From: Marinomonas rhizomae | GTDB taxonomy: Bacteria; Pseudomonadota; Gammaproteobacteria; Pseudomonadales; Marinomonadaceae | Length of the DNA: 64,000 nucleotides | Reading direction: 5' to 3' | Assembly (NCBI RefSeq): GCF_024397855.1 | Contig: NZ_CP073343.1 | Location: 744,001-808,000, forward strand | Shown here: positions 45,773 to 59,657 of the stretch, piece after piece | How positions within the stretch are numbered: the first letter of the stretch is position 1 | How the letters are laid out: each line of letters begins with the position of its first letter | Notes under the pieces: model-generated | The model's database searches: none | Seen by the model: only the letters and a program-made list of their open reading frames with translations | Told to the model about the DNA's origin: nothing | Program-made: the position numbers and the translations under genes

Positions 45773-45792
45773 GTTGATATTCATTCTCATTT
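45773..45792 (+). promoter_or_regulatory. Fur-box-like site before the ECF sigma gene
   Basis: GTTGATATTCATTCTCATTT matches 17 of 20 positions of the common Fur box form AATGATAATCATTCTCATTT, and 12 of 14 of the 7-1-7 motif. It lies about 40-60 bp before the sigma factor start, indicating iron repression of the operon. Confidence 0.65.
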
Positions 45793-45831
45793 GTTGTACT
45801 TTTCTGCTTCTAAAAAATATTATGAGTAACT

Positions 45832-46368
45832 ATGAGGTCGAACGGTTCGATGAATCCTGAGCGTCAAACAACTCAACACGTTGGTGAGCTTTATGCTGAG
45901 CATAATTCATGGCTAACGGGATGGATTCGTGGGCGCCTCGGTTGTCATGAATTGGCAGCAGATATTGCACAAGATACTTTTGTACGATTACTCAAAAAAC
46001 CGAAATACTTTTCTAATATAGGTGAAGCTCGTGCTTTTTTAAGTACGATAGCGAAAGGCTTGTATATTGATCATTGGCGTCGTAAGCAGGTTGAGCAAGC
46101 TTGGTTAGAGTCGTTGGCCAATTGTGAAGAAGAATTTGTGCCTTCTGCTGAGCATTCTGCGTCTATGATTGAGTTGCTTTGTGAATTAGACGCCATGATC
46201 GCTAAGTTACCCAAAAAGGTGGCTAATACGCTTATCTTGTCTCAACTTCATGGTTTAACTTACCGAGAAATTGCCGAACGTTTGTCTGTTTCGGAGCGAA
46301 TGATAAAGCGCTACATGGCTCAGGCTATGTTACAGTGTCTTTTATTTAAATCTGATCAGTCTCTATAA
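45832..46368 (+). CDS. ECF sigma factor, FecI-like
   Basis: A 178-aa RNA polymerase sigma factor of the iron-starvation ECF group. Region 2 is HELAADIAQDTFVRLLKKP and FLSTIAKGLYIDHWRRK. Region 4 is LPKKVANTLILSQLHGLTYREIAERLSVSERMIKRYM in pieces. The start is ambiguous: an ATG at 45832 or another at 45850 with GAGG further upstream. Four bp separate it from the fecR-like gene. Expected to read the receptor-protease promoter when activated by the receptor through the anti-sigma. Confidence 0.9.
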   Translation: MRSNGSMNPERQTTQHVGELYAEHNSWLTGWIRGRLGCHELAADIAQDTFVRLLKKPKYFSNIGEARAFLSTIAKGLYIDHWRRKQVEQAWLESLANCEEEFVPSAEHSASMIELLCELDAMIAKLPKKVANTLILSQLHGLTYREIAERLSVSERMIKRYMAQAMLQCLLFKSDQSL

Positions 46369-46372
46369 TCTT

Positions 46373-47359
46373 ATGTCTTCCTCACGACCTTCAAATCACG
46401 CCCATTTAGAAGCTGCTTCTGAATGGTTTTCTGTATTATCTGATAAACCTGTTTCAGAATCGGATCGACGTGCTTGGCAGCAGTGGTTGGAGGATGACAT
46501 CGCTCACCGTCAAGCATGGCAGCAGGTTGAATCCGTTGGCGCAATGTTTTCTGCTTTTAAAGATGACACAGAAAAACATTCAGCGGGCTATGTTTTGAAT
46601 AATGGTGGCTCCGTGAATCGTCGTCAACTCATGAAGGGGATGTTGGGGGTGACCGGTGTTGCGGCATTAGGCTGGATTGGTTGGAATGAAACGCCATTGC
46701 CAACTATAGCGTCATCATGGATGGCCGATTTTCATACGCAAGTTGGGCAAGTCGCTACTTATGACTTAGAGGATGGCTCACAAGTTTGGTTGAATACCAA
46801 TAGTGCGATAAATCGTTTCCCTCGTCGTGAAAATCGAGGTGTGTCTCTGGTGATGGGGGAGGTCTTGGTGCAAACACAAACCTCTCTCGACAGCCGAGCC
46901 TTTTCTGTTTCATGCGCACATGGGCTTGTTAGATCAAGCGAAGAAACTGTACGTTTTTGTGTGAGACAGTTGTCAACAGAGCAAAGTGTATTAGCTGTTT
47001 ATGAGGGGGCTGTATCACTGGCACCTTTTGATTCAAGCGCCTCTAGAACGCTTTATGGCGGGGAAGAGGTGATTTTTAGTTCCCACACTATGGCCGATAC
47101 TCAGCCAGCTTCTCTTCTATATGACTCTTGGCGTGATGGATTGTTAATTGTTGAAGATATGCCCCTAAAAAATTTCATGGCAGAAATTGGGCGTTATAAC
47201 CATGATTATATCAACCTCGATCCCAGTGTGGATGATCTGCGAGTGGTGGGGACGTTTCCGAATCACGATCTGAATCTTGTGCTTTCTATGTTGTCTAAAT
47301 CGTTTCCAATTCGAGTGCGTCACCCGCTGCCTTGGTGGGTGAGTGTTTCTGCGGCTTAG
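46373..47359 (+). CDS. FecR-family anti-sigma factor / regulator
   Basis: A 328-aa inner-membrane protein. It has an N-terminal cytoplasmic DUF4880-like domain (ASEWFSVLSDKPVSESDRRAWQQWLEDD), one transmembrane segment (MLGVTGVAALGWIGW), a periplasmic FecR domain (VGQVATYDLEDGSQVWLNTNSAINR and VYEGAVSLAP) and a C-terminal DUF4974-like domain (FMAEIGRYNHDYINLDP). It relays receptor occupancy to the adjacent sigma factor. Its C-terminal domain would contact the STN domain of the downstream receptor. Confidence 0.9.
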   Translation: MSSSRPSNHAHLEAASEWFSVLSDKPVSESDRRAWQQWLEDDIAHRQAWQQVESVGAMFSAFKDDTEKHSAGYVLNNGGSVNRRQLMKGMLGVTGVAALGWIGWNETPLPTIASSWMADFHTQVGQVATYDLEDGSQVWLNTNSAINRFPRRENRGVSLVMGEVLVQTQTSLDSRAFSVSCAHGLVRSSEETVRFCVRQLSTEQSVLAVYEGAVSLAPFDSSASRTLYGGEEVIFSSHTMADTQPASLLYDSWRDGLLIVEDMPLKNFMAEIGRYNHDYINLDPSVDDLRVVGTFPNHDLNLVLSMLSKSFPIRVRHPLPWWVSVSAA

Positions 47360-47471
47360 CGTTCACTAAACATTATTTTTAAACTATTGTAAGAAAAACG
47401 CTTTTTTCATGTCCCTTTTTCTATTTACGTTCGGTAATAGTAATAAGAAACATTATTATTACGGAGTTCGT

Positions 47472-50246
47472 ATGGCTTTTTTCCGATTACCAAGACAGAA
47501 GCTCAAGAAGCGCACAACCGCTTCTCTGCTTGCTATGAACACGCTTCTCGCCAGTGGCGTAGCGTTGACGATGACATCCACCGCTTATGCCGAATCCGCT
47601 GCTGTTGAAAAGCGTTACTACAACATTCCCGCAGGACCTTTACCACAAGCTGTTAATGCTTTCGCTGCTGTATCGGGTATGTACTTAGGTGGTAATGGGG
47701 CGCTTCTTAAAAACAAGAAAACACTTGGTTTTGACGGCGAATATACGCCAGGACAGGCATTGGATTTGTTACTGGTTGGCACTGGCCTTTCTTATGATAT
47801 TGGTGATGATAAAAGCGTTGTTTTAGTTGACTCTAGTTCTGTCTCCAAAAGTGCCGACGGCATAACCATGGCGCCATTGTTGGTGCAAGGTCAACAGAAT
47901 AGAGCTGAAGTGGGTGTGCAGACGATTGGCTTGGATGAGATTGAAGCCATGCCGACGGAAGGTGGAAATCTAACGGATTTACTTAGAACCAACACGGCCG
48001 TTAACTTTAGCCGTTCAAGTAGTAGTTCCACCAATAGCGGCAGTATGCGCCCTGATGAGGTTTCTATTCATGGGCAAGCATTTTATCAAAACGCCTTTAT
48101 GATTGATGGTGTTGATACGTCTAATGATTTTGACCCAGGTTCTAGCAGCGCGGGTGACAGTTATACAAATCCGTTCATTCCTGGGAATTTGAGTACTTTA
48201 TCTGGTAGCTCCCCACAAAGCTATTACATGGATGTCGATGCTTTAGAGCAGGTCAAGGTATACAGCAGTAATATTCCTGTGGAATACGGTGGTTTTATGG
48301 GTGGTGTGATAGACGCTCGCCTTAAGCGTTATGATGGCGAGGATTCCGTTTCCATAAAATATGGATTGTCTAAAGATGCTTGGGAAAAATTCCATTTTGA
48401 TGAAAAAAAAGCAGAAGAATTCTATGGGGCTGACAGTATCGATGGGGCTTATACGCCGGAATACAAAAAACAAAATTACTCGATAACAGCGTTAAAAAGC
48501 TTGTCCGATAAGGTGGGATCTACCTTAACCATTTCTCGTAAAACCTCTGAATTCAGGCAGCAATATGAAAACCGTGCCGATGAGGTTAAGTCAATTTATT
48601 ATAATGACACCATCGATAATATGATGGCGCGCATTGACGCCAAAGTGAATGACAGAATAAATTTAGGTTTTTATTTACGTTATTCCGATCGTTTTCATGA
48701 TGGATTAACCTCAAAGGATTATTCAGACACCTTTGTTAAGTCTCATACTGCTTATGGTGTTGGGAATAACTTCGACTACCGCTTTGACAATAGTGTGCTA
48801 ACCATTGATACCGCATTCGATCGTTCCTTCGACGAGCTTGATTCCCGTTCTAATGTTTATACATTTCATCCAACGGAAAACTTTTATAATGGTCTTCCTT
48901 ATTCTGGCGGCTATGGCGACATTTTACAGCAGCAAGACACGTTAAGCATGAATACAAGATGGGTTCACGATGCTATCTCCATAGGTCAAACAAAGCATAC
49001 TTTTAAAATTGGTGCTGACATAGCCGTTAAAAAAGCATTATATCAAGCCGGTGGCAGCGAGTACTTTCAGTACTCCTGTTTATCTGGAAGTAGTGGCTCT
49101 GGATGTGCTGACTCAAATAGTGATGGGGTTCATGATGAAAGTGATGAATATCTGAAAACTTATGGTGTATTAACGGCGAACAAAATAACTAAGCATTATC
49201 AAAGTTATGGTATTTATCTTGAGGATAAAGTCGATATTAATGACTGGAGGTTGACTGCAGGAATAAGAGCTGACAATGAAACCTTGCTTGATAATATTAA
49301 TATTTCCCCACGTGCAAATTTGCAATGGGATGTTTTTGGCGATAGCAGCACAAAGCTGACCACTGGTGCTAGCCGCTATTATGGGCGCAGTTTCCTTAAA
49401 TATGCTCTCAGTAACGAAATGAAGTCGTGGTATACGACAACCCAATATAACAGTGATGGCAGCGTCAAAACGAACTATCCAAGACAGAGTTCAAGTGCTT
49501 ACGGAAATTTCTCAGATTATGATTTAAAAACACCTTACTCTGATGAAATAATGTTTCGAGTTGATCAAAAAATGGGGCCTATCGATGCTTCTTTGACCTT
49601 AGTGAATCGTGAGAGTCGAGATGATGTTCAACGCATAAAAAATTCAGATGATAAATTGTACTATTACACTAATGAAGGGCGTAGTAGTACCAACAGTGTT
49701 GAGCTTGCTTTTCTGCAGCGCGTACCTTTTGAATTGCTTAACAGTCAAACCAAAATCAATTTTTCAGTTGCATGGAAAGAGAGTAAGTCAAACGCCCAAG
49801 GTGATGATGCCTATGATGAAACAGTAGAGGATGAAGATCAAATTTTCTACAACGGAAAGGTCATAGACTATAGTGACTTGCCTTCGTGGGATTACAATAT
49901 TCCATTCACCGTGAAGCTAAGTTCAAATACGGTTATTCCTGCTTGGTATCTTCAGTGGAGTAATTTTGTAAACTTTAGGAGTGGCGGAACCATTGCTAAA
50001 AATACGTATAAATCAGACTCGGAATCTGGACTTGATATATACGAAGACTATGACTTTAGTGAATTAGTGACGTTAGACTCCAAAATTCGATTTTCTCCTC
50101 CTTTACTTGCGAGCAGCGAAGGGTATGTTGAGGTGAAAATTACGAATATATTTGATGATGTTATCTCAACATCAACCAATGCGACAGCGACGCAGTCTTT
50201 CACCTCCGGTCGAAAAATATCCATGGAAGTCGGCATGCGCTTTTAA
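47472..50246 (+). CDS. TonB-dependent transducer/receptor with STN signalling domain
   Basis: A 924-aa outer-membrane protein. The signal peptide ends AYA at residue 40. An STN (secretin/TonB short N-terminal) domain spans about 48-120 (YYNIPAGPLPQAVNAFAAVSG, LLLVGTGLSYDIGDD). Next come the plug (MAPLLVQGQQNRAEV; VSIHGQAFYQNAFMIDGVDTSNDFDP) and a long barrel with an aromatic C-terminus (MEVGMRF). STN domains bind FecR-type anti-sigma proteins, so this one signals as well as imports. I chose the ATG at 47472 because CGGAG lies 6 nt upstream. The plug is distant from siderophore receptors; the ligand may be a protein or peptide, given the adjacent protease. Confidence 0.92.
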   Translation: MAFFRLPRQKLKKRTTASLLAMNTLLASGVALTMTSTAYAESAAVEKRYYNIPAGPLPQAVNAFAAVSGMYLGGNGALLKNKKTLGFDGEYTPGQALDLLLVGTGLSYDIGDDKSVVLVDSSSVSKSADGITMAPLLVQGQQNRAEVGVQTIGLDEIEAMPTEGGNLTDLLRTNTAVNFSRSSSSSTNSGSMRPDEVSIHGQAFYQNAFMIDGVDTSNDFDPGSSSAGDSYTNPFIPGNLSTLSGSSPQSYYMDVDALEQVKVYSSNIPVEYGGFMGGVIDARLKRYDGEDSVSIKYGLSKDAWEKFHFDEKKAEEFYGADSIDGAYTPEYKKQNYSITALKSLSDKVGSTLTISRKTSEFRQQYENRADEVKSIYYNDTIDNMMARIDAKVNDRINLGFYLRYSDRFHDGLTSKDYSDTFVKSHTAYGVGNNFDYRFDNSVLTIDTAFDRSFDELDSRSNVYTFHPTENFYNGLPYSGGYGDILQQQDTLSMNTRWVHDAISIGQTKHTFKIGADIAVKKALYQAGGSEYFQYSCLSGSSGSGCADSNSDGVHDESDEYLKTYGVLTANKITKHYQSYGIYLEDKVDINDWRLTAGIRADNETLLDNINISPRANLQWDVFGDSSTKLTTGASRYYGRSFLKYALSNEMKSWYTTTQYNSDGSVKTNYPRQSSSAYGNFSDYDLKTPYSDEIMFRVDQKMGPIDASLTLVNRESRDDVQRIKNSDDKLYYYTNEGRSSTNSVELAFLQRVPFELLNSQTKINFSVAWKESKSNAQGDDAYDETVEDEDQIFYNGKVIDYSDLPSWDYNIPFTVKLSSNTVIPAWYLQWSNFVNFRSGGTIAKNTYKSDSESGLDIYEDYDFSELVTLDSKIRFSPPLLASSEGYVEVKITNIFDDVISTSTNATATQSFTSGRKISMEVGMRF

Positions 50247-50272
50247 GTGAATTTTTCTTTACTTCCTTTCTT

Positions 50273-50304
50273 ATAAACAAATGCTCTGTCGAGCATTTGT
50301 TTAT
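50273..50304 (+). promoter_or_regulatory. Perfect hairpin between receptor and protease genes
   Basis: ATAAACAAATGCTC and its exact 14-bp complement surround the loop TGTC, followed by a weak T-rich stretch (GGCTGTTTTT). It lies in the 93-bp gap inside the operon. It could attenuate read-through or protect the receptor mRNA. Confidence 0.6.
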
Positions 50305-50339
50305 GGCTGTTTTTAAATAACTTCTTTGTGAGCTGTTTT

Positions 50340-53162
50340 ATGCTTTTTTTACAGAAATTTCTGAGTATTGCTGGGGTGATTTGTTTGTTTGCTCTGACGG
50401 CCCAAGTGCATGCTGATGACAAAGCTTTACCTTGGGATAATCGAGTTGTACAAGGTACCTTGGATAATGGTTTTCGCTATTATTTATTCGATTCAAGACA
50501 AGAAAAAGATGCGCCAAAAGGGCTGACGTTAGCGAATTTGGTCGTGCTTTCTGGTGCTATTGATGAGAAAGACAATCAGTTAGGTGTGGCGCACATGGTT
50601 GAACACATGGTGTTCCATGAAAGTAAGACGTTTCCAAACGGTGTGCGTAAAGCCTTGACTGATATGGGATTCAAGCAAGGCCGTGACTTTAATGCCATGA
50701 CCAACAGCGAAAATACCCGCTATATGGTGAACTTGAAAAACACCACGCCTGAGCGATTGACTAAGGTGTTGGATATTTATCAACAAATGGCATTTCATGC
50801 TGAAATCAAAGCTTCGTCGTTGGACAAAGAACGTTTAATTATTCAAGAGGAATGGCGTGGTAAGTTAAGCCACCGCTCCCGAGTAAATAATGAGAAAAAA
50901 GCCTTATTACGGGTTGGATCCTTGTATCCAGAACGCCCAGTAATAGGCACACAAGCGACGATTAAAAACACGCCCGCGGATCAACTTCAGACGTTTTACC
51001 AAGATTGGTATGCGCCGAATAATATGGCATTGGTTATTTATGCACCAGTCGATACCGCGGAATTGGAAGATCAAGTTAAGCGAATGTTTAGCGCTGAACC
51101 TAGGCGAGAGCTGCCAAAACGCCATCCCAAAGATCCTGTTTTAGATGAAAAGCTTAAAATTGGTCAGCTTCAAGATCCAGGTAATAAATGGAATCAAGTG
51201 GCATTTTTATATCGCTTTGAAAGTAAGACTGACGATACGGACGAAGGAATACGTAATGGCGTGATTAACTATATGACACGTAACCTATTGACCCAGCAGG
51301 TTCGTCGGCAAAAAGAAGTGTTACCAGAGCATGTTCGTGCCTTATCTACTACCAAAGGTAACGTGTCACCTAATGTGGCAATCTTAGGTTTTTCTGTGAA
51401 TGTCGATGATGGTTACCATGTTTTAGGATTAGATACATTAATTCAAGAATTAGAACGAATTGAAAAACATGGTTTTATGCAAGAAGATTTTGATCAGGTT
51501 TATCAAAAAGTCATTGATACAGCAGAGCGTAATAAAAACGCAGCGAAGAGTCGAGGTACTATTTGGGTAGTTAAAATGATGGATGCTGTCACTTCTGATA
51601 AAGTTCTGCAAGATCCTCAGCTGAGTAATGATCGAATTCTGAGTCTTGTGAAAACGATATCTTTGGAAGACGTAAATGCTCGTCTGACGCAGTGGTTGTC
51701 TTCGCCAGATCGTATTCTTTATACGCAAGCTGTGGGTGGGAAAAGTGTCGATATCGGTACAGCGGAATCCGTTGAAGCTATTTTTAAAGAAATGAAGTCT
51801 CGACAGCTTGGAGCCTTAGAAATAGAAAAAGTAGTAGCGGTAAAAATATTACCTGCGGTTACTAAAAGCGGTTCAATGACGCTTTCCTCGAGAAACCCAG
51901 AATTAGGTATATCGTATTGGTCTTTATCAAACGGCGATAAACTCACACTGCTCGATCCCAGTGTGTTGGCCGAGCATTATCAAATAGATAAGTCCGAGGA
52001 AGATAATAAAACTTATTTTACGGCCCTCTCTGCTGCGGGTTATAACGTAAAAAAAGGCTCTGTTTGGGCAGAACAAATCGCTGCGCAAATGTCTGATGCG
52101 ACTGGGATATATGGTTGGAGTGATGAAGAGTTCCAGCAATGGCGAAAAGAGAATAGTGTGTTTTTGTCATCTAAGCAAAAGGAACAAAGTCTTGCGTATC
52201 GCGGAGCGATTGATGATGAAAAGTTAGATAAGCTATTGGGGCTTTATCATATTAACCAAGTTAACCCCCAAATTGATGCTGATGTTTACGACAGCATAAT
52301 AAGAAATTTGAAAAGAAGTGCCAGCATTAAGGTAGAGCGTCCTATCGAGGTGTTTTCCCGTCGTCTAGCGCAGGCACGCTTCGGTAAAAGAGAGTTAACG
52401 GTTAGCTTATCTAATTTAGCGCCTTTGTCGTTAGAAGTAATACAGCAAACGCGTTACAAGCAAGCGGTGTTGCCTGTTCATTATTTTATGGTGTCTCGTT
52501 TGCCTGAAGAGGATATTAAAGACTTAGTTACTTTGTACCTAGCTAATATTCCACGTGACTTGAATGCGCAAATGGATAATACCACTGCAGTTGTACAACA
52601 AGCAGGTCAAGTGATTGTTGATGTTTCATTAAATACAGAGCCGAAAGCTGAATATAGGATGTATGCGTATCAATCTATTCCTTGGTCGCCAATTGCGGCG
52701 GTACAGCTTACTTACTTAGGCGAGCGGTTAGAAGCGCAGTTAAAGCAGCGCCTACGCAGTGAGGTTCAAGGTGTTTATAGTGTTAGAGTCGGCTTGGATC
52801 TTAATAAAGAGACTAATCGTGCCGAGCTAAAAATCCAATATTCAAGCTCTCCGGAACGGTTAGATGATTTGGCCGACATGACCCAAAAAACGCTTACGGA
52901 ATTACCAAAGATGATCACCGAAGAGTGGGTGGATGAAATTCATAAGGCGTTTGTCGATGTGGAGCAAAATCGCTTAGAAAAGGATTTTGATGGCACGTTA
53001 GTGCACCGACTTGAATTGAGCGAAACCCTGTATGGTGATGATCGCTATTTAGATGAAATGGATGAATTGGCTTCTGGTTTAACATTAGAGAGACTAAAAA
53101 ATATTGTTGATACTTTAACATTCAGCGATCGGGTGATCGGATTGTATCGTCCTTTGGAATAG
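50340..53162 (+). CDS. Periplasmic M16-family zinc protease (PqqL/FusC-like)
   Basis: A 940-aa exported protease. A signal peptide (FLSIAGVICLFALTAQVHA) precedes the first M16 domain, where the inverted zinc motif HMVEH (His85, Glu88, His89) is intact, with the third ligand expected near KERLIIQEEWR. A second, inactive M16-like half follows. I chose the ATG at 50340; the frame also opens at a GTG four codons earlier. Length and layout match E. coli PqqL (gene pair yddB-pqqL) and FusC, which cleaves imported ferredoxin. Its place behind a TonB receptor suggests it degrades the imported ligand. A strong terminator follows. Confidence 0.9.
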   Translation: MLFLQKFLSIAGVICLFALTAQVHADDKALPWDNRVVQGTLDNGFRYYLFDSRQEKDAPKGLTLANLVVLSGAIDEKDNQLGVAHMVEHMVFHESKTFPNGVRKALTDMGFKQGRDFNAMTNSENTRYMVNLKNTTPERLTKVLDIYQQMAFHAEIKASSLDKERLIIQEEWRGKLSHRSRVNNEKKALLRVGSLYPERPVIGTQATIKNTPADQLQTFYQDWYAPNNMALVIYAPVDTAELEDQVKRMFSAEPRRELPKRHPKDPVLDEKLKIGQLQDPGNKWNQVAFLYRFESKTDDTDEGIRNGVINYMTRNLLTQQVRRQKEVLPEHVRALSTTKGNVSPNVAILGFSVNVDDGYHVLGLDTLIQELERIEKHGFMQEDFDQVYQKVIDTAERNKNAAKSRGTIWVVKMMDAVTSDKVLQDPQLSNDRILSLVKTISLEDVNARLTQWLSSPDRILYTQAVGGKSVDIGTAESVEAIFKEMKSRQLGALEIEKVVAVKILPAVTKSGSMTLSSRNPELGISYWSLSNGDKLTLLDPSVLAEHYQIDKSEEDNKTYFTALSAAGYNVKKGSVWAEQIAAQMSDATGIYGWSDEEFQQWRKENSVFLSSKQKEQSLAYRGAIDDEKLDKLLGLYHINQVNPQIDADVYDSIIRNLKRSASIKVERPIEVFSRRLAQARFGKRELTVSLSNLAPLSLEVIQQTRYKQAVLPVHYFMVSRLPEEDIKDLVTLYLANIPRDLNAQMDNTTAVVQQAGQVIVDVSLNTEPKAEYRMYAYQSIPWSPIAAVQLTYLGERLEAQLKQRLRSEVQGVYSVRVGLDLNKETNRAELKIQYSSSPERLDDLADMTQKTLTELPKMITEEWVDEIHKAFVDVEQNRLEKDFDGTLVHRLELSETLYGDDRYLDEMDELASGLTLERLKNIVDTLTFSDRVIGLYRPLE

Positions 53163-53190: not shown

Positions 53191-53225
53191 AAATGCCCAA
53201 CAATGATTTTGTTGGGCATTTTTTT
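53191..53225 (+). terminator. Terminator of the receptor-protease operon
   Basis: AAATGCCCAACAA and its exact 13-bp complement (53209-53221) surround a 5-nt loop, followed by a run of T. Confidence 0.9.
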
Positions 53226-53333
53226 AACATTAAAGGTAAGTTGAAAAGTGGCTTGTTGCTCGACTTATGAATTAGTCATGAATACTATGAAAGCCATCTA
53301 TCGTTGTGATCTTACCTAGCTAGGAAAACATTC

Positions 53334-54560: not shown

Positions 54561-56996
54561 TTATCCTTGTGCTTGCCATTGTTGTTGGTAAAAGCGTTGG
54601 ATCTTGTCACCTTCCCATTGAAACAAATACAGCCAGCCGTTATCGATCAATTGCCTGACAATGTCATGCTTTGCAGCGATTTTCTCGATCTCGGCTTTTG
54701 GGGCGGCAATGTAGACCGCAAGTCGGACCGGCGTGTGCATCCATTTCTCACCATTGCTTAGTGATTGCATAGACAAGCCTATGCGCAAGTCCCCACCGTT
54801 ACCTTCAAATACACCAATGTTGCCACCCACGGCATTGTGTAGCACTTTATTACCGCAGCCGAATTTGAAGTTATCGGTTACCGATAGGTTGTATTGCATG
54901 TTGATCCAGTGAGTCACCAGCATGGGCGCCGTTAAAATACGTTCTAAGATGCTGAAGTCGGGGTCATTGAGTTGATCATAGTCGTGCAGAAAACTGCGGC
55001 CTTGTAAGTCAAGGTGTCGAGTCTGCTGGCGTGGCGCAATGATAAAGGAATGGTTGTTGGCGAGCCCCCATTCTGGGTTCACTTGTGACCAGTCATTGGC
55101 GCGTTTGGTAAAGGCCTTCGAACGTTGTTTGTCTGAAGCATCCAGCAAGGAGGTATCTAATTTTGTCGCGCGTTCTTGCTGAGCGAGATATTGCGCTTTT
55201 TCAAACCACTCGGTCATTTTGCTGTTGGTGCTTGTAGAGCCTTCTGTGGTATCAAAGCAAGTTAATTGATCTGTGGTGGTGTTATGCAACGCAGGGACAA
55301 ATTGCGTGTCACTAGGAATCTTCATCCCCATGTCGTTGAGTAAGGCGCGTACCTTGTCATCATTTAATAGTGAAGCCAACACTCTCACGTTAACTTCGCC
55401 ACTTTGGCCGCCGCAAGCGCCACATTCTAAGCCTGCGGCATGAAGGTTGTTGCTAGTATGGCTACCGTGACCGACTAACATGACGATAGGCGCGTAAGTT
55501 GTTAGCTTGATGGTGTCTAAAATCTCCTTTGCCAAATTGGCTTTATCTTGGTCGGTTAAAGCCACGCCTTGTTGGGTCAATTGCCAATGGGTATTTGGTG
55601 CTAAACGATTGGCTGGGTGTTCTTGTCGCTTGGATAAGAGAGTTTGTTTGAACATTTTAAAGGCGTACCACCAACCCATGGATTCCACCATGGAAAACGA
55701 TGCAGGCGCTGAGTGCCCCCAACGATGCCAGCGAGCTTCTTTTTGCTGGTGGTGAACGTGATTTTTATCACTCTTACATTCGGTGGCAGTGATGGAGGCT
55801 TGCAGCAAACCAGGAAGCTGCGGGCGTTCATAGTTGCTGTCTTTCGCTTTGTATTCGATCGGTAAGCCAAAGAAGCCGGCAAAGCCAAGGGTCTGAATCG
55901 TATCGGATTGTTTTTCCAGCGCACGGCGAAACACTTCAGAACGAACGTCGATACAGAAAATCGCTTGGAGTTCAGGTCTAGTTGACAGTGCTGGAACAGG
56001 TTGTTCTGTTGTTAGTGTTTTATGTAGGTTTTTTTGTTCACTATATTCCAGTGCTAAGGCCCATACTTTAGGCGTTAATAAAGCGTCTTGATGGGCTTCA
56101 ATCAATTGTAGAATGGCATTTTTTTGTGCTGACCATTTTGTTTCTATTGCGGCGTGCAATGCTGTCGATGTGTGTTTTAGGTAACGCCAAACAACCAATT
56201 CCCAGGCCATTTTGATGGCAAGTAAAGACTCTACATGGTTTTCTTTTGCTAAGTTTTCGTTGTTATCTCCTTTGGACCAATTCAGGTAAGCCAAGTAGCT
56301 GCTCCAACCATTAATATCCAGCAATAACGCTTGGGCATAGAAGTGCAGCGCTTGATCGTCCAAGGCTAATTCTTCGATAGCGAGGGCAAACAAGGCTTCT
56401 TTATCGCTGGGTAAATGATGAAAGAAATCGATTAGCTTGGATTCGGCCATGATGATACTTAGGCCTTTGTCTTCATTGGTGACTTCTAGCCAATGGCTGT
56501 AAAGATCGAGTTCGCTGTCGATGTTTTGTTGTCTCAGAGTGGGGCTTTGCTGTTGATAATGGGCCGCGCAAAACTGGCTTACTTGGTGAGTGATTTCGTC
56601 GTGCCAAGACATTTTATGGGCGGAGCGCTGTTGATCTGCAAGATCGGCAATGTTGCGCCATGGGGTTGGGGCAGTGCTAAGTTGAGATAGGTGGTCAAGT
56701 AAGGATGCTGGCGCCACCTTGAGGTCATAATGATGAGCTGCTTTGACAAGGCAATCTTGCGAAATCCGTCCTTCGTCAAACCAGGCGCGATAAGACTTAA
56801 TAGGTAAATGAGTTTTGATACCAGCTAAGGCAGATAGCTCATCAGATATCTCGTCAAAGGGTTTGTGTACCAATGACCAAAGTGGGTTCACCGCGATCAG
56901 CTTATCCAGCTGCCAGTGGGGCGCGATGGTACTGGCCGCATCAAGCAGGAGGTCTTTTTGCTGCATGCTTAACGTATTTGTGGCCTTGATAGTCAT
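54561..56996 (-). CDS. dabA: Inorganic carbon transporter DabA (DUF2309)
   Basis: An 811-aa peripheral membrane subunit of the DAB inorganic-carbon pump, related to beta-carbonic anhydrases. Proposed zinc/active-site residues are all present: Cys348 and Asp350 in CIDVRSE, His510 in VGHGSHTSNN and Cys525 in LECGACGGQSG, with the same 15-residue His-Cys spacing as characterised DabA. It works with the DabB proton channel to convert CO2 to bicarbonate in the cytoplasm. An AGGAG ribosome binding site overlaps the end of dabB. Interesting in an apparently heterotrophic genome. Confidence 0.93.
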   Translation of the reverse strand: MTIKATNTLSMQQKDLLLDAASTIAPHWQLDKLIAVNPLWSLVHKPFDEISDELSALAGIKTHLPIKSYRAWFDEGRISQDCLVKAAHHYDLKVAPASLLDHLSQLSTAPTPWRNIADLADQQRSAHKMSWHDEITHQVSQFCAAHYQQQSPTLRQQNIDSELDLYSHWLEVTNEDKGLSIIMAESKLIDFFHHLPSDKEALFALAIEELALDDQALHFYAQALLLDINGWSSYLAYLNWSKGDNNENLAKENHVESLLAIKMAWELVVWRYLKHTSTALHAAIETKWSAQKNAILQLIEAHQDALLTPKVWALALEYSEQKNLHKTLTTEQPVPALSTRPELQAIFCIDVRSEVFRRALEKQSDTIQTLGFAGFFGLPIEYKAKDSNYERPQLPGLLQASITATECKSDKNHVHHQQKEARWHRWGHSAPASFSMVESMGWWYAFKMFKQTLLSKRQEHPANRLAPNTHWQLTQQGVALTDQDKANLAKEILDTIKLTTYAPIVMLVGHGSHTSNNLHAAGLECGACGGQSGEVNVRVLASLLNDDKVRALLNDMGMKIPSDTQFVPALHNTTTDQLTCFDTTEGSTSTNSKMTEWFEKAQYLAQQERATKLDTSLLDASDKQRSKAFTKRANDWSQVNPEWGLANNHSFIIAPRQQTRHLDLQGRSFLHDYDQLNDPDFSILERILTAPMLVTHWINMQYNLSVTDNFKFGCGNKVLHNAVGGNIGVFEGNGGDLRIGLSMQSLSNGEKWMHTPVRLAVYIAAPKAEIEKIAAKHDIVRQLIDNGWLYLFQWEGDKIQRFYQQQWQAQG

Positions 56997-57005
56997 GCGA
57001 TTCTC

Positions 57006-58628
57006 CTAAGGTTTTAGCGACGGTTGATTGTTGCTTGTTTGGTGATGCTGTTGCTTGGTTCGAGCGGGTAAAGTGACTGGCCAGAATTTCAGCACCAAAC
57101 GTGTTAGCCATTCATCCAGATAAAGCCCTGCGAACAATGCGATTGACAAGCGACGAACAGCACGCCAGCGTACTTGATAATGCAATAGTGCACTCAAGAG
57201 GAAGAGCAGGCTAAATAAAACCATGGCCCAGATATCGGCTAGGGAAAAAGCCTGAACCGTGTGGGTTGAATAGGTCGGCAATGCGTAGTGCGTGGCGTAT
57301 TTTAATGCGGCATAAATCACACACAAAAACACGCCCATCACGAAGGTATAAACAACCGAAGGCGAGTGCTCGCACGTGCGCCATTGTACGATAAGGACAG
57401 TGAGCGCGAGAGCGAATAACCACCAAGTACTAAACGCGCTGTCGAAGCCAAATAAGGTTCGAACAACGACTACAACTGCCGTGCTTAAGGTCAGGGCAAG
57501 TAGCCAAGTTTGCGCGTTAGGCACGACGGATTTATTCGTCGGTGAAGACTGAGTATTAGTTTTTGCCGCGCTAGAAAGGCGCAATCTAATGGCGTCATTC
57601 ACCGCGTTGCCGGAGTTGAGGAATGAGTAGGCTTTATAAAACGAATGGGCGAGCAAATGCAGCAAGACTAATTCGTACAAACCTAAGGCGAACTCTAACA
57701 GCATCAGACCCATCTGAGCACAAGTAGACCAAGCAAGGCGAACTTTTACGCTGATTCTAGTGGTCATTATCAAAGCACTGGCGAGGGTCGAAAGCCCTGC
57801 CACAACCAATAACAACCAGATTGCGACAGAACTTTGCGCAACCACTGGCGTAAACAAAAGCAATAGATAGCCACCTAAGTTAATCACACCGGCGTGCAAC
57901 AAGGCGCTAACGGTGGTTGGTGATTCTACTACTTGTATTAACCAGCCATGGAAAGGCAATTGAGCGCATTTGATTAACGCTGCCAGTGCGATCAAACAGG
58001 CCGCCACTTGCTCTTGCCAGTGTAATGCTAAGCCGGCGCTAGATTGGGCAACAGCGGTATCGATAATGGTGTTGATGTATAGACTGTCGTATTGCTGGTA
58101 AAGCAAGGCAAAGGCGGCAAACAAAGACAGTTCGGCAACTCGTGCCAGCATAAATTTTTTGTGCGCCGCTAGAATGGCTCGGGGACGATCCGCATAGAAG
58201 GTTAATAAATTATTGAGTGATAAACTAATGCCTAACCAACCTAGCCAAAAAATCACCAAATGGTTGGTGGTGACTGTGATAGCAACGGACGCTAAGGTAA
58301 ACATCAACCAACGATAGTAGCGATTTAGATTGGCTTGTCCCGCCATGTAATTACGAGAAAAACTGATCAACACCCAACCCATGACTGTCACGAGTCCAAG
58401 CATGATCTGATTGAGAGCCGTGTGGCGAATCAAATTAGAAGACTGCCAAGCATCGGTAAAAAAGTAGCTAACCGGAAAAGTGGTAAGAAAAATAATCAGT
58501 AACAGAAAGCTTAATCGAGAGGCTTTTTGAGCAACCGCTGTGCTTTTTTTACGGCCGAGATAGCAGCCGCCAAAAAACAGCGCAAAGGGAATGAAAATCG
58601 GTAGAAAACTTAACGCGAGAAGCGACAT
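57006..58628 (-). CDS. dabB: DabB, NuoL-like proton channel of the inorganic carbon pump
   Basis: A 540-aa inner-membrane protein homologous to complex I subunit NuoL/MrpA. About fourteen hydrophobic segments; FIWLGWLGISLSLNNLL, AALIKCAQLPFHGWLIQVVESPTTVSALLHAG (split) and the lysine-containing helix typical of the antiporter fold are visible. Its partner dabA begins 9 bp downstream. In the DAB complex it couples proton inflow to DabA catalysis. The pairing with DabA excludes a real complex I role. Confidence 0.93.
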   Translation of the reverse strand: MSLLALSFLPIFIPFALFFGGCYLGRKKSTAVAQKASRLSFLLLIIFLTTFPVSYFFTDAWQSSNLIRHTALNQIMLGLVTVMGWVLISFSRNYMAGQANLNRYYRWLMFTLASVAITVTTNHLVIFWLGWLGISLSLNNLLTFYADRPRAILAAHKKFMLARVAELSLFAAFALLYQQYDSLYINTIIDTAVAQSSAGLALHWQEQVAACLIALAALIKCAQLPFHGWLIQVVESPTTVSALLHAGVINLGGYLLLLFTPVVAQSSVAIWLLLVVAGLSTLASALIMTTRISVKVRLAWSTCAQMGLMLLEFALGLYELVLLHLLAHSFYKAYSFLNSGNAVNDAIRLRLSSAAKTNTQSSPTNKSVVPNAQTWLLALTLSTAVVVVVRTLFGFDSAFSTWWLFALALTVLIVQWRTCEHSPSVVYTFVMGVFLCVIYAALKYATHYALPTYSTHTVQAFSLADIWAMVLFSLLFLLSALLHYQVRWRAVRRLSIALFAGLYLDEWLTRLVLKFWPVTLPARTKQQHHQTSNNQPSLKP

Positions 58629-58751: not shown

Positions 58752-59657
58752 ATGGCACGACTGAATTACCACCATTTGTATTATTTTTGGCGAGTCGCTA
58801 GGAGTCCAAGCCTGACGGAAGCAGCAGAAACCTTGCATATATCTCAATCGGCCTTGTCTGCGCAGATAAAGCAGCTAGAGCAAAGCTTGGATGTGGTGTT
58901 ATTTGTTCGCCAAGGACGTAAGTTGGTGCTGACCGATGTTGGTCGCCGTGTGTTGGCTTATGCGCAAGATATTTTTAATACCGGTGAAGAGTTAGAGAAG
59001 TTTATCCAGAAAGACAGCGCCACGCAGGTTCAGCACATAACCATTGGTGTGCAGAGTAATTTGTCGAGGAATTTTATCGAGAGCTTTATTGCCCCCTTGC
59101 TAAAAAGCGAGCATGTGGATTTTTCACTTGCTTCCAGAGGCATGACGGATTTGCTCAGTGGTCTTGTTAATCACGAATTGGATTTAGCGCTAACCAATCG
59201 TGCCATTTTAAGCGAAGGCCACGACACCACATGGCAAAATCAGTTGGTTGCAAGACAAGCTGTGGCGATAGTTGGCCCTTATGGTGAAAAGCCGGATGCG
59301 CCTTTTCCCCAAGGCTATGAAGGTAAAAAATGGGTGGTGCCAGGCCGCAATACCGATATTCGTTCATCCTTCGAATCTTTTTGTGCTACTCATCAATATC
59401 AGCCAGATATCAAAGCGGAAGTTGACGATATGGCGATGCTGCGATTGTTAGCAAGGGACAGTGGTTATTTGTCTGTATTGCCGCCAGTGGTGGTAAAAGA
59501 TGAGATTCAATCGAACGTGCTGGAGGATTATGAAAGCATTCCCCAAGCGTTCGAAAATTTTTACGCCATTACTATGCCTCGTAAGTTCACTTCGCAACCC
59601 GTACTGGATTTGATCAAGATGGCGATTCATCAGTATGCTGTCGACCATTCAATGTAA
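58752..59657 (+). CDS. LysR-family regulator divergent from dabBA
   Basis: A 301-aa regulator. The helix-turn-helix lies at LYYFWRVARSPSLTEAAETLHISQSALSAQI (residues 10-40), with LTDVGRRVLAYAQDIFNTGEEL following. The start resembles NhaR (YHHLYYFWRVAR). It is divergent from the DAB genes; between them ATACATA and TATGTAT (58695-58701, 58729-58735) form a weak inverted repeat. It probably adjusts the DAB pump to CO2 or pH. A ribosome binding site is weak. Confidence 0.88.
   Translation: MARLNYHHLYYFWRVARSPSLTEAAETLHISQSALSAQIKQLEQSLDVVLFVRQGRKLVLTDVGRRVLAYAQDIFNTGEELEKFIQKDSATQVQHITIGVQSNLSRNFIESFIAPLLKSEHVDFSLASRGMTDLLSGLVNHELDLALTNRAILSEGHDTTWQNQLVARQAVAIVGPYGEKPDAPFPQGYEGKKWVVPGRNTDIRSSFESFCATHQYQPDIKAEVDDMAMLRLLARDSGYLSVLPPVVVKDEIQSNVLEDYESIPQAFENFYAITMPRKFTSQPVLDLIKMAIHQYAVDHSM

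Follow-up and report, generated by a model that had tools for sequence, protein, structure and literature searches.

The locus raises the question of whether a TonB-dependent receptor and an M16 protease, encoded behind their own sigma factor and anti-sigma factor, act as a protein importer that is switched on from the cell surface by its own ligand. In Pectobacterium, FusA and FusC serve ferredoxin import and digestion, and the substrates of Fus-type importers outside that genus are posed as an open question in section 11 of the same paper (PMC6793856). Here, we followed up an original prediction that four adjacent genes of Marinomonas rhizomae form a surface-sensed import system for a protein or peptide iron source. 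The window is the whole 64,000-nucleotide stretch analysed (contig NZ_CP073343.1, positions 744,001 to 808,000), and its relevant features, counted from its first letter, are as follows.

45774..45802, + strand: Fur-like site overlapping a sigma-70-type promoter (TTGATA n17 TACTTT), 5' of the sigma gene
45832..46368, + strand: FecI-like ECF sigma factor gene (Pfam, NCBIfam)
46373..47359, + strand: FecR-like anti-sigma factor / signal regulator gene (DUF4880 and FecR)
47410..47436, + strand: predicted FecI-type promoter of the receptor (TGTCC n16 TCGGTA)
47434..47462, no strand assigned: inverted repeat GTAATAGTAAT...ATTATTATTAC, directly 5' of the receptor ribosome-binding site
47472..50246, + strand: TonB-dependent receptor gene with N-terminal STN domain, FusA/YddB family (PDB matches, predicted fold)
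47601..47846, + strand: STN signalling domain, aa 44-125 (Pfam STN)
47856..47885, + strand: DGITMAPLLV stretch, aa 129-138, left edge of the exchanged segment
47907..50246, + strand: plug and beta-barrel, exchanged cassette
49104..49151, + strand: EF-hand-like acidic loop CADSNSDGVHDESDEY, barrel region
50271..50306, + strand: hairpin between receptor and protease genes
50340..53162, + strand: secreted M16 zinc protease gene, FusC/PqqL type, intact HxxEH
53191..53227, no strand assigned: terminator-like hairpin and T run, 3' of the protease gene (direct reading)

All four genes were found where they had been described, on one strand, and their assignments were borne out by Pfam: Sigma70_r2 and r4_2 in the sigma factor (FecI-like by NCBIfam as well), DUF4880 and FecR in the anti-sigma factor, STN and Plug in the receptor, and Peptidase_M16 and M16_C in the exported protease, whose HMVEH motif is intact. 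FecR_C in the anti-sigma factor scored 22.1 bits, under the Pfam cut-off of 24.4, and the protein matched the FecR model PRK09774 at E 1.6e-59 and 201.6 bits, short of that model's strict cut-off of 385. The sigma factor perhaps begins at ATG 45850, the start common to its relatives, the receptor probably at ATG 47472 rather than 47409 (GGAG lies just 5' and a signal-peptide-like start follows), and for the protease ATG 50340 is preferred over GTG 50328. The expected terminator was also present as a hairpin and T run; a program listing places it on the minus strand. The second hairpin, in the receptor-protease gap, is not mentioned in the original prediction.

By sequence and predicted fold, the receptor belongs to the FusA/YddB family, with an added STN domain. 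Among PDB entries it matches YddB best (E 7.1e-79) and FusA next (E 2e-67), in both cases across plug and barrel, and Foldseek searches with the predicted fold returned the same two proteins (E 1e-57 and 2e-55) ahead of a following row at 5e-26, aligning 756 and 730 residues, respectively, versus 502-647 in the other 48 listed rows. The STN match reached 31.6 bits (Pfam cut-off 28.4), and predicted strands and helices alternate over aa 48-120. Sequence matches to FoxA, FemA, FecA, and PupB were confined to this STN end; HasR matched by its STN-region chain alone, weakly (E 0.4), and a HasR-type barrel was absent among the 50 listed structure matches. The protease is closest in sequence to FusC (6b03, E 5.7e-143; PqqL 6ofs, E 1.5e-56). 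Its H85, E88, and H89, counted from ATG 50340, and E164, 75 residues further, are invariant among nine aligned relatives, and direct reading suggests a signal-peptide-like N-terminus.

The unit shares linked genes of the FusA and FusC families with Pectobacterium (27% receptor identity and 32% protease identity over 910 columns to the P. zantedeschiae homologues), but differs in that the Fus operon has FusB (TonB-like) and FusD (ABC), relatives of which were not found among the three flanking genes scanned (S30EA, GST, and MFS). E. coli YddB, the best sequence match, likewise has an M16 partner, its gene lying between yddA and pqqL; YddB has no Pfam STN, and no sigma or anti-sigma gene occurs among nine annotated features around yddB. 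With FecI-FecR-FecA of E. coli, the Marinomonas unit shares gene order, the FecI and FecR families, the STN domain, TGTCC n16 TCG 5' of the receptor, a hairpin after the receptor gene (there between fecA and fecB), and Fur-type control, here as a predicted Fur-like site, whereas the barrel is of FusA type and the protease occupies the place of the ABC importer genes.

The regulatory elements were compared across homologous loci. Scored against the Fur consensus, the site at 45774 is weak on its own (13/19 matches, with ~2.35 sites of that score expected per 10 kb), but an 18-base Fur-like pattern, composed after inspection of the loci, was kept at the sigma promoter in 17 of 19 and had no match elsewhere on either strand of these 19 sequences (368 kb). 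A -35/-10 pair with 17-base spacing precedes the sigma gene in 16/19 loci. The receptor-promoter motif (TGTCCC n CGGTA, likewise composed after viewing the locus sequences) recurs in all 19 genus loci, and has a single match in its own genome, as does a reversed-pattern control. Its spacing equals that of a similar stretch of sequence 5' of E. coli fecA. Outside the genus, TGTCC-TCG preceded the receptor in one of eight signalled loci (L085), and this pattern is not rare (0 to 4 matches on one strand per scanned locus).

Across 19 loci, 94.7% of 208 cells of the inverted repeat at 47434..47462 were paired, while two-sided changes were not above shuffles (125 of 500 shuffles equalled or exceeded the observed value). 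A conserved 5'-UTR RNA hairpin was therefore not accepted as its settled identity, and the repeat may be either such a hairpin or a DNA operator. The receptor-protease hairpin was found in 16/18 loci, with fold energy z ≤ -2 in 12/18. A separate protease promoter unrelated to the sigma factor, which would speak against one regulated unit, gained no support as far as consensus patterns reach: a consensus scan from 50246 to 50340 found none, nor did two narrow patterns in any of 18 intergenic stretches.

The proposed search for co-occurring STN receptors and M16 proteases was carried out within the genus and beyond. The receptor was found in 18 of 48 Marinomonas genomes, always with the four genes in the same order, and among 35 genus genomes receptor and M16 were without exception either both present (13) or both absent (22). 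Where the quartet is absent, the flanking GST and MFS genes adjoin in four of five checked genomes. These observations support inheritance of the quartet as one unit. One genome, G011 (locus L020), has frameshifted receptor and sigma genes and was for that reason left out of the receptor and sigma alignments, locus correlations, breakpoint analysis, and AU tests. An order-level genome, G039, gave two distant M16 matches (L029 and L030), in whose 17-kb stretches no sigma, FecR, receptor, GST, or MFS relative was found.

Beyond the genus, the supposition that Fus-type systems lack their own sigma/anti-sigma pair did not hold: FecI/FecR pairs accompany such genes in Pectobacterium fontis, Symbiopectobacterium, Yersinia vastinensis, Uliginosibacterium, and three rhizobial loci, and the whole quartet occurs in P. 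fontis, Y. vastinensis, Uliginosibacterium, and rhizobia. Of three Pectobacterium loci, two (L086, L087) lack STN and FecI/FecR and that of P. fontis (L088) has both. We read the quartet as a branch of the known protease-associated, Fus-type importers to which surface signalling has probably been added. The "Marinomonas" cluster named in section 6 of Grinter 2019 probably includes this receptor lineage; FecR, FecI, and STN do not appear in the main text of that paper, where "sigma" is just the name of a supplier, but its Fig 2 or S1 Table may show them (PMC6793856).

The wider survey covered the best 80 of at least 471 related stretches; in 46 of these 80 no FusA-like receptor was seen. Among the 34 protease-found loci with a receptor in these best 80, 20 had STN, FecI, and FecR, 14 had none of the three, and none was mixed, although weak relatives can escape since the FecI, FecR, and STN profiles were built from Marinomonas proteins. 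On quick trees with long branches (33 rows; L077 of M. pontica and L144, with broken genes, left out), the signalled/unsignalled label changed at least six times for M16 and at least four times for the receptor. A rule that STN implies FecI/FecR nearby held for protease-found loci and was dropped for two exceptions in the receptor-found set, where Pfam was applied to 13/19 receptors: L184 (STN 29.4 bits, above the cut-off) and L186 (22.3 bits, under it), neither with FecI/FecR found nearby. L077 was tallied with STN in the protease-found set but, its receptor being in two pieces, without STN in the receptor-found set.

These data bear on what the receptor takes up. That it is a siderophore-type signalling receptor, with the protease gene downstream by mere position, now seems very improbable. 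Two signalled loci (L178, L187) do lack M16, with a MauG-like di-haem enzyme gene following the receptor (the MauG profile was built from five of the loci counted with it), yet both lie outside the genus, the FusC-type protease accompanies the receptor in 18/18 genus genomes, and both sequence and fold place plug and barrel nearest FusA/YddB, with siderophore receptors far lower in Foldseek and none as a full-length best match. Of the second finding that the original prediction had set against itself, the first half, homologous loci without the protease, therefore occurs outside the genus alone, and nothing suggests the other half, an ordinary siderophore receptor.

Stripping of haem or another cofactor, with the ligand not imported whole and the protease clearing peptides or acting on FecR or the receptor, is more conceivable but still unlikely. 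HasR, a receptor that signals in response to a haemophore protein, imports haem and not the protein, and in HasR-HasI-HasS surface signalling is set off by that protein ligand; further, in L186 a gene for a ChaN-like haem-binding protein lies between those for the receptor and M16, and the MauG-like enzymes occur in relatives from which M16 is absent. Against this, 14 of the 34 loci have the protease without a detected FecR, making it unlikely that M16 is mainly a FecR-processing part, and the nearest relatives, FusA and FusC, import and digest ferredoxin (PMC6793856).

We therefore consider it likely that the quartet is a Fus-type protein importer under its own cell-surface signalling, whose ligand would be digested for iron. 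The original idea of surface-sensed import gains from the FusA/YddB-type STN receptor, the FusC-type protease, the accompanying FecI/FecR, the fecA-like motif, and inheritance as a unit; the signalling, import, cleavage, and iron gain described here are modelled on FecA and FusA. Under iron shortage, Fur would come off the promoter at 45774, allowing low-level production of sigma factor and FecR. In the periplasm, the STN domain would be shifted against FecR once a protein ligand sits on the FusA-like barrel, and FecR would free or activate the sigma factor for receptor transcription, with some transcripts reading past the 50271 hairpin so that the protease gene is transcribed at a lower level. 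TonB would then pull in the ligand or its iron-bearing part, and the FusC-like protease would cut it, making the iron usable. If the importer does switch itself on upon ligand binding, the hunt for its ligand becomes a reporter screen.

Comparison between species revealed that the plug-barrel part has a history of its own. Between our locus and M. lutimaris, the barrel is 42% identical, versus 93% for STN, 96% for M16, 92% for sigma, and 71% for FecR, and DNA identity falls from 88 to 38% across adjacent 60-base bins just past the DGITMAPLLV stretch, possibly a TonB box. Over 120 pairs from 16 loci (L027 and L028 left out), Spearman correlations of identity were 0.87 for sigma-M16, 0.62 for STN-M16, and 0.49 for STN-sigma, versus 0.18 for STN-barrel, 0.12 for barrel-M16, and 0.10 for barrel-sigma. 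AU tests rejected opposite groupings in 10/10 cases, with p-values that are not those of pre-named groups because the groups were picked after the identity tables were known. By these measures, species have swapped the plug-barrel part (~780 residues), with the break at the STN/plug junction, and sigma, STN, and protease have largely stayed linked. No recent barrel donor outside the genus was found; the closest barrel without STN among the order-level sample is 46% identical.

By analogy with FecA and FusA, the exchange probably alters what the barrel binds. That the swap instead lets cells evade bacteriocins or phages exploiting the receptor, the nutrient ligand staying the same, is plausible but clearly short of even, and it would compete with this meaning of the exchange rather than with the import system. 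Pectocin enters through FusA as receptor (PMC11658791), and changes of barrel are not tracked by the protease, as expected with unchanged cargo and odd if both were fitted to one substrate; barrel types, however, differ throughout plug and barrel (~42% barrel identity), beyond surface loops. Recombination swaps the plug-barrel head and leaves the putative sensing and digesting chassis in place. The exchanged-barrel pairs (our locus and M. lutimaris, G066 and M. polaris, G006 and M. alcarazii) are natural pairs differing mainly in the ligand-binding part, so that ligand choice is separable from signalling and digestion. A further suggestion is that, in several proteobacterial lineages, protein import and surface signalling form distinct modules that can be parted and recombined. 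More tentatively, and with a little less than an even chance of being right, we propose modular protein foraging, in which a constant sigma/anti-sigma/STN/protease chassis carries a plug-barrel head tradable between species, each strain sensing, importing, and digesting an extracellular protein of its own, and in which, across proteobacteria, a second exchangeable slot holds the processing enzyme (M16 or MauG-like).

Two smaller observations concern individual parts. FecR is less conserved than the products of the neighbouring genes, and in the receptor alignment the EF-hand-like loop of the barrel region is present in 15 of 17 Marinomonas receptors versus 0 of 10 others.

The four genes that the original prediction had read as one operon for signalled protein import were all found, open, at the predicted place in the window:

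45832-46368, plus strand, FecI-like sigma factor
46373-47359, plus strand, FecR-like protein
47472-50246, plus strand, TonB-dependent receptor of the FusA/YddB family with an N-terminal STN domain
50340-53162, plus strand, M16 protease

Against FecI models the sigma factor matched NF041727 (E 3.4e-47, 160.5 bits, under the strict cut-off), and the FecR protein matched its model at E 1.6e-59, likewise under the model cut-off; the receptor carried STN and Plug domains, and the protease both M16 domains. Receptor and protease starts appear better placed at 47472 and 50340, from which each gene is open and has a signal-peptide-like stretch in its first residues. This receptor was the sole STN match (E 0.001 or better) in the 4.37-Mb genome. 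Judged from sequence, the locus would be a Fus-type importer with added surface signalling, a variant of known importers. The receptor also encodes an EF-hand-like acidic loop (49104-49151; 15 of 17 Marinomonas rows, 0 of 10 others), which might, as a guess, bind calcium as an adaptation to sea water.

Grinter 2019 (PMC6793856), in the portion available, defines the family of Fus-type importers and names a Marinomonas cluster. FecR, FecI and STN are absent from its main text, though Fig 2 or S1 Table may show this architecture, and the available portions of PMC13253070, PMC5095587 and PMC11658791 do not join FusA to surface signalling. A literature search joining FusC, M16 protease or ferredoxin uptake with FecR and a TonB-dependent receptor found no publication.

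The original prediction knew of no sigma/anti-sigma pair belonging to Fus-type systems themselves; FecI/FecR were found at Pectobacterium fontis, Yersinia vastinensis, Uliginosibacterium and other loci. Scanning contigs with the protease alignment, we kept the best 80 of 471 loci, among which 34 had FusA-like receptors: STN, FecI and FecR occurred together in 20, none of the three in 14, and no locus was mixed. The 20 signalled loci from these best 80 comprised 12 from Marinomonas and eight others (Uliginosibacterium, P. fontis, two Symbiopectobacterium, one of them broken, Y. vastinensis, two Neorhizobium, and one Rhizobiales bacterium). The Pfam STN domain was found in 6/6 tested non-Marinomonas receptors with FecI/FecR (Uliginosibacterium slightly under cut-off) and in 0/4 tested without, and was not found in YddB or the receptor of locus L086. 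The STN/FecI/FecR label switches at least six times on the protease tree and at least four on the receptor tree (quick trees, 33 rows), a pattern that suggests repeated gain or loss of signalling, as a set. In P. fontis, the protease falls within the Pectobacterium group and the receptor groups with those of Yersinia and Symbiopectobacterium; with its signalled receptor and FecI/FecR next to a FusC of Pectobacterium type, this Fus locus seems to have had its receptor side replaced.

With a threshold of E 1e-40, receptor searches detected the family in 4/369 class genomes (our own and three others) and 19/390 order genomes (six of the genus, 13 others), and the 16 other genomes gave 19 receptor-found loci. 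STN occurred with FecI/FecR in three of these (L178, L185 and L187; the STN of L178 and L185 under the Pfam cut-off), with no FecI/FecR detected nearby in two (L184, and L186 under cut-off), and was not found in 14 (eight by Pfam, six by our own profile alone). The STN-matching receptor of L184 (3186-6023) had no FecI/FecR in the 8 kb upstream examined. A MauG/MbnH-like di-haem enzyme lay within 6 kb in 13/19 loci (on the other strand in L189 and L192), M16 in two, neither in four, and both together in none. L185 holds a complete quartet including M16; in L178 and L187 a MauG-like gene directly follows the signalled receptor, at the usual place of M16. Homologous loci without the protease, together with an ordinary siderophore as the receptor's ligand, had been named in advance as counting against the protein-import reading; loci of the first kind exist even among signalled ones outside the genus, 18/18 genus loci keep the protease, and nothing points to a siderophore receptor. 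Grinter 2019 (PMC6793856, available portion) had already noted genes for cytochrome c peroxidase at loci that lack FusC. In L186 (3-4432) a ChaN-like haem-binding protein comes next after the receptor, and then part of an M16 gene at the contig end, which may hint at a haem link.

Within Marinomonas, STN receptor and M16 protease co-occurred, both being present in the identical 13 of 35 genomes searched (protease E 1e-30 or better). A receptor search of 48 genus genomes gave 18 positives, all with the order sigma-FecR-receptor-protease, and 16/18 loci share the same upstream GST gene; the other two (L027, L028) are diverged quartets located elsewhere, with proteases about 34% identical. In 4/5 checked genomes without the unit, the GST and MFS genes are direct neighbours with a gap of about 90 to 190 bases, and the fifth had no MFS within 5.4 kb up to the contig end. 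The named matches were Marinomonas species. Frameshifts disrupt the sigma and receptor genes of the G011 genome (locus L020). There and at L077 (M. pontica), where the same two genes are frameshifted, FecR and protease remain open, and either a decaying copy or an assembly error could be the cause.

The unexpected part is an exchange of the ligand-binding module in a signalled Fus-type importer. Across the 16 same-site loci (120 pairs), Spearman correlations of identity were 0.87 for sigma-protease, 0.71 for FecR-protease, 0.62 for STN-protease and 0.49 for STN-sigma; those of the barrel stood at 0.10 with both sigma and FecR, at 0.12 with the protease and at 0.18 with STN, and only the plug tracked it (0.92).

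Percent identity between pairs of loci
Own and M. lutimaris: sigma 92, FecR 71, STN 93, protease 96, barrel 42
M. lutimaris and M. polaris: STN 71, protease 80, barrel 94
G066 (a genus genome) and M. alcarazii: STN 70, protease 79, barrel 94
G066 and M. polaris: STN 89, protease 90, barrel 61

In the four close pairs examined, DNA identity starts to drop some 360 to 420 bases past the start of the receptor gene, at the STN/plug junction; it returns to about 100% near the gene end between our locus and M. lutimaris, and the drop is gradual in the arctica/rhodophyticola pair. AU tests rejected 10/10 constrained trees (weakest p 6.6e-4; groups chosen after seeing the identity tables). Recombination of the plug-barrel between species is well supported by sequence comparison. 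The exchange could have been driven by a change of ligand or by evasion of bacteriocins or phages, and the lack of tracking between protease and barrel suggests a protease with broad use. The literature searches, one of them aimed at exchanged domains of signalling receptors, turned up no description of barrel exchange. Recombination and transfer of the synthetase clusters for pyoverdines have been suggested to be frequent (PMC11444679, available portion).

Ahead of the sigma gene, the Fur-like TTGATATTCATTCTCATT overlaps a sigma-70-type promoter of 17-base spacing; the Fur-like form recurs in 17/19 loci and the -35/-10 pair in 16/19. Upstream of the receptor, TGTCC n16 TCGGTA occurs in 19/19 genus loci, with spacing differing by one base, and agrees with a stretch upstream of E. 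coli fecA, read from sequence and not from the mapped fecA -35/-10. Only 1/8 non-genus signalled loci (Uliginosibacterium) has the TGTCC-TCG pattern there, a pattern not rare elsewhere in the loci, and the enterobacterial ones have a different common stretch around CTGCCCG and a T run (by eye). A conserved dyad (47434-47462), directly 3' of the predicted -10 and 5' of the RBS, may be either an RNA hairpin or an operator. In E. coli, Fur controls the promoters of both fecI and fecA, and a hairpin 3' of fecA reduces transcription of the genes beyond (PMC9249621, available portion). A hairpin recalling the latter lies between receptor and protease in 16/18 loci by inspection, with fold energy z of -2 or lower against shuffles in only 12/18. 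A separate M16 promoter, which would have spoken against the predicted operon, was sought in these intergenic stretches, and no promoter pattern appeared in 18/18. Together with the fecA precedent, the hairpin and lack of a promoter pattern make co-transcription of the protease with the receptor, at a lower level, most likely.

Two further features lie in and beyond the locus. Directly before its membrane segment, FecR has an RR-containing stretch (about 46616-46680) that we take to resemble Tat signals. Two adjacent minus-strand genes (54561-58628) presumably resemble the DabA/DabB inorganic-carbon pair, and beside them a LysR-like gene begins at 58752.
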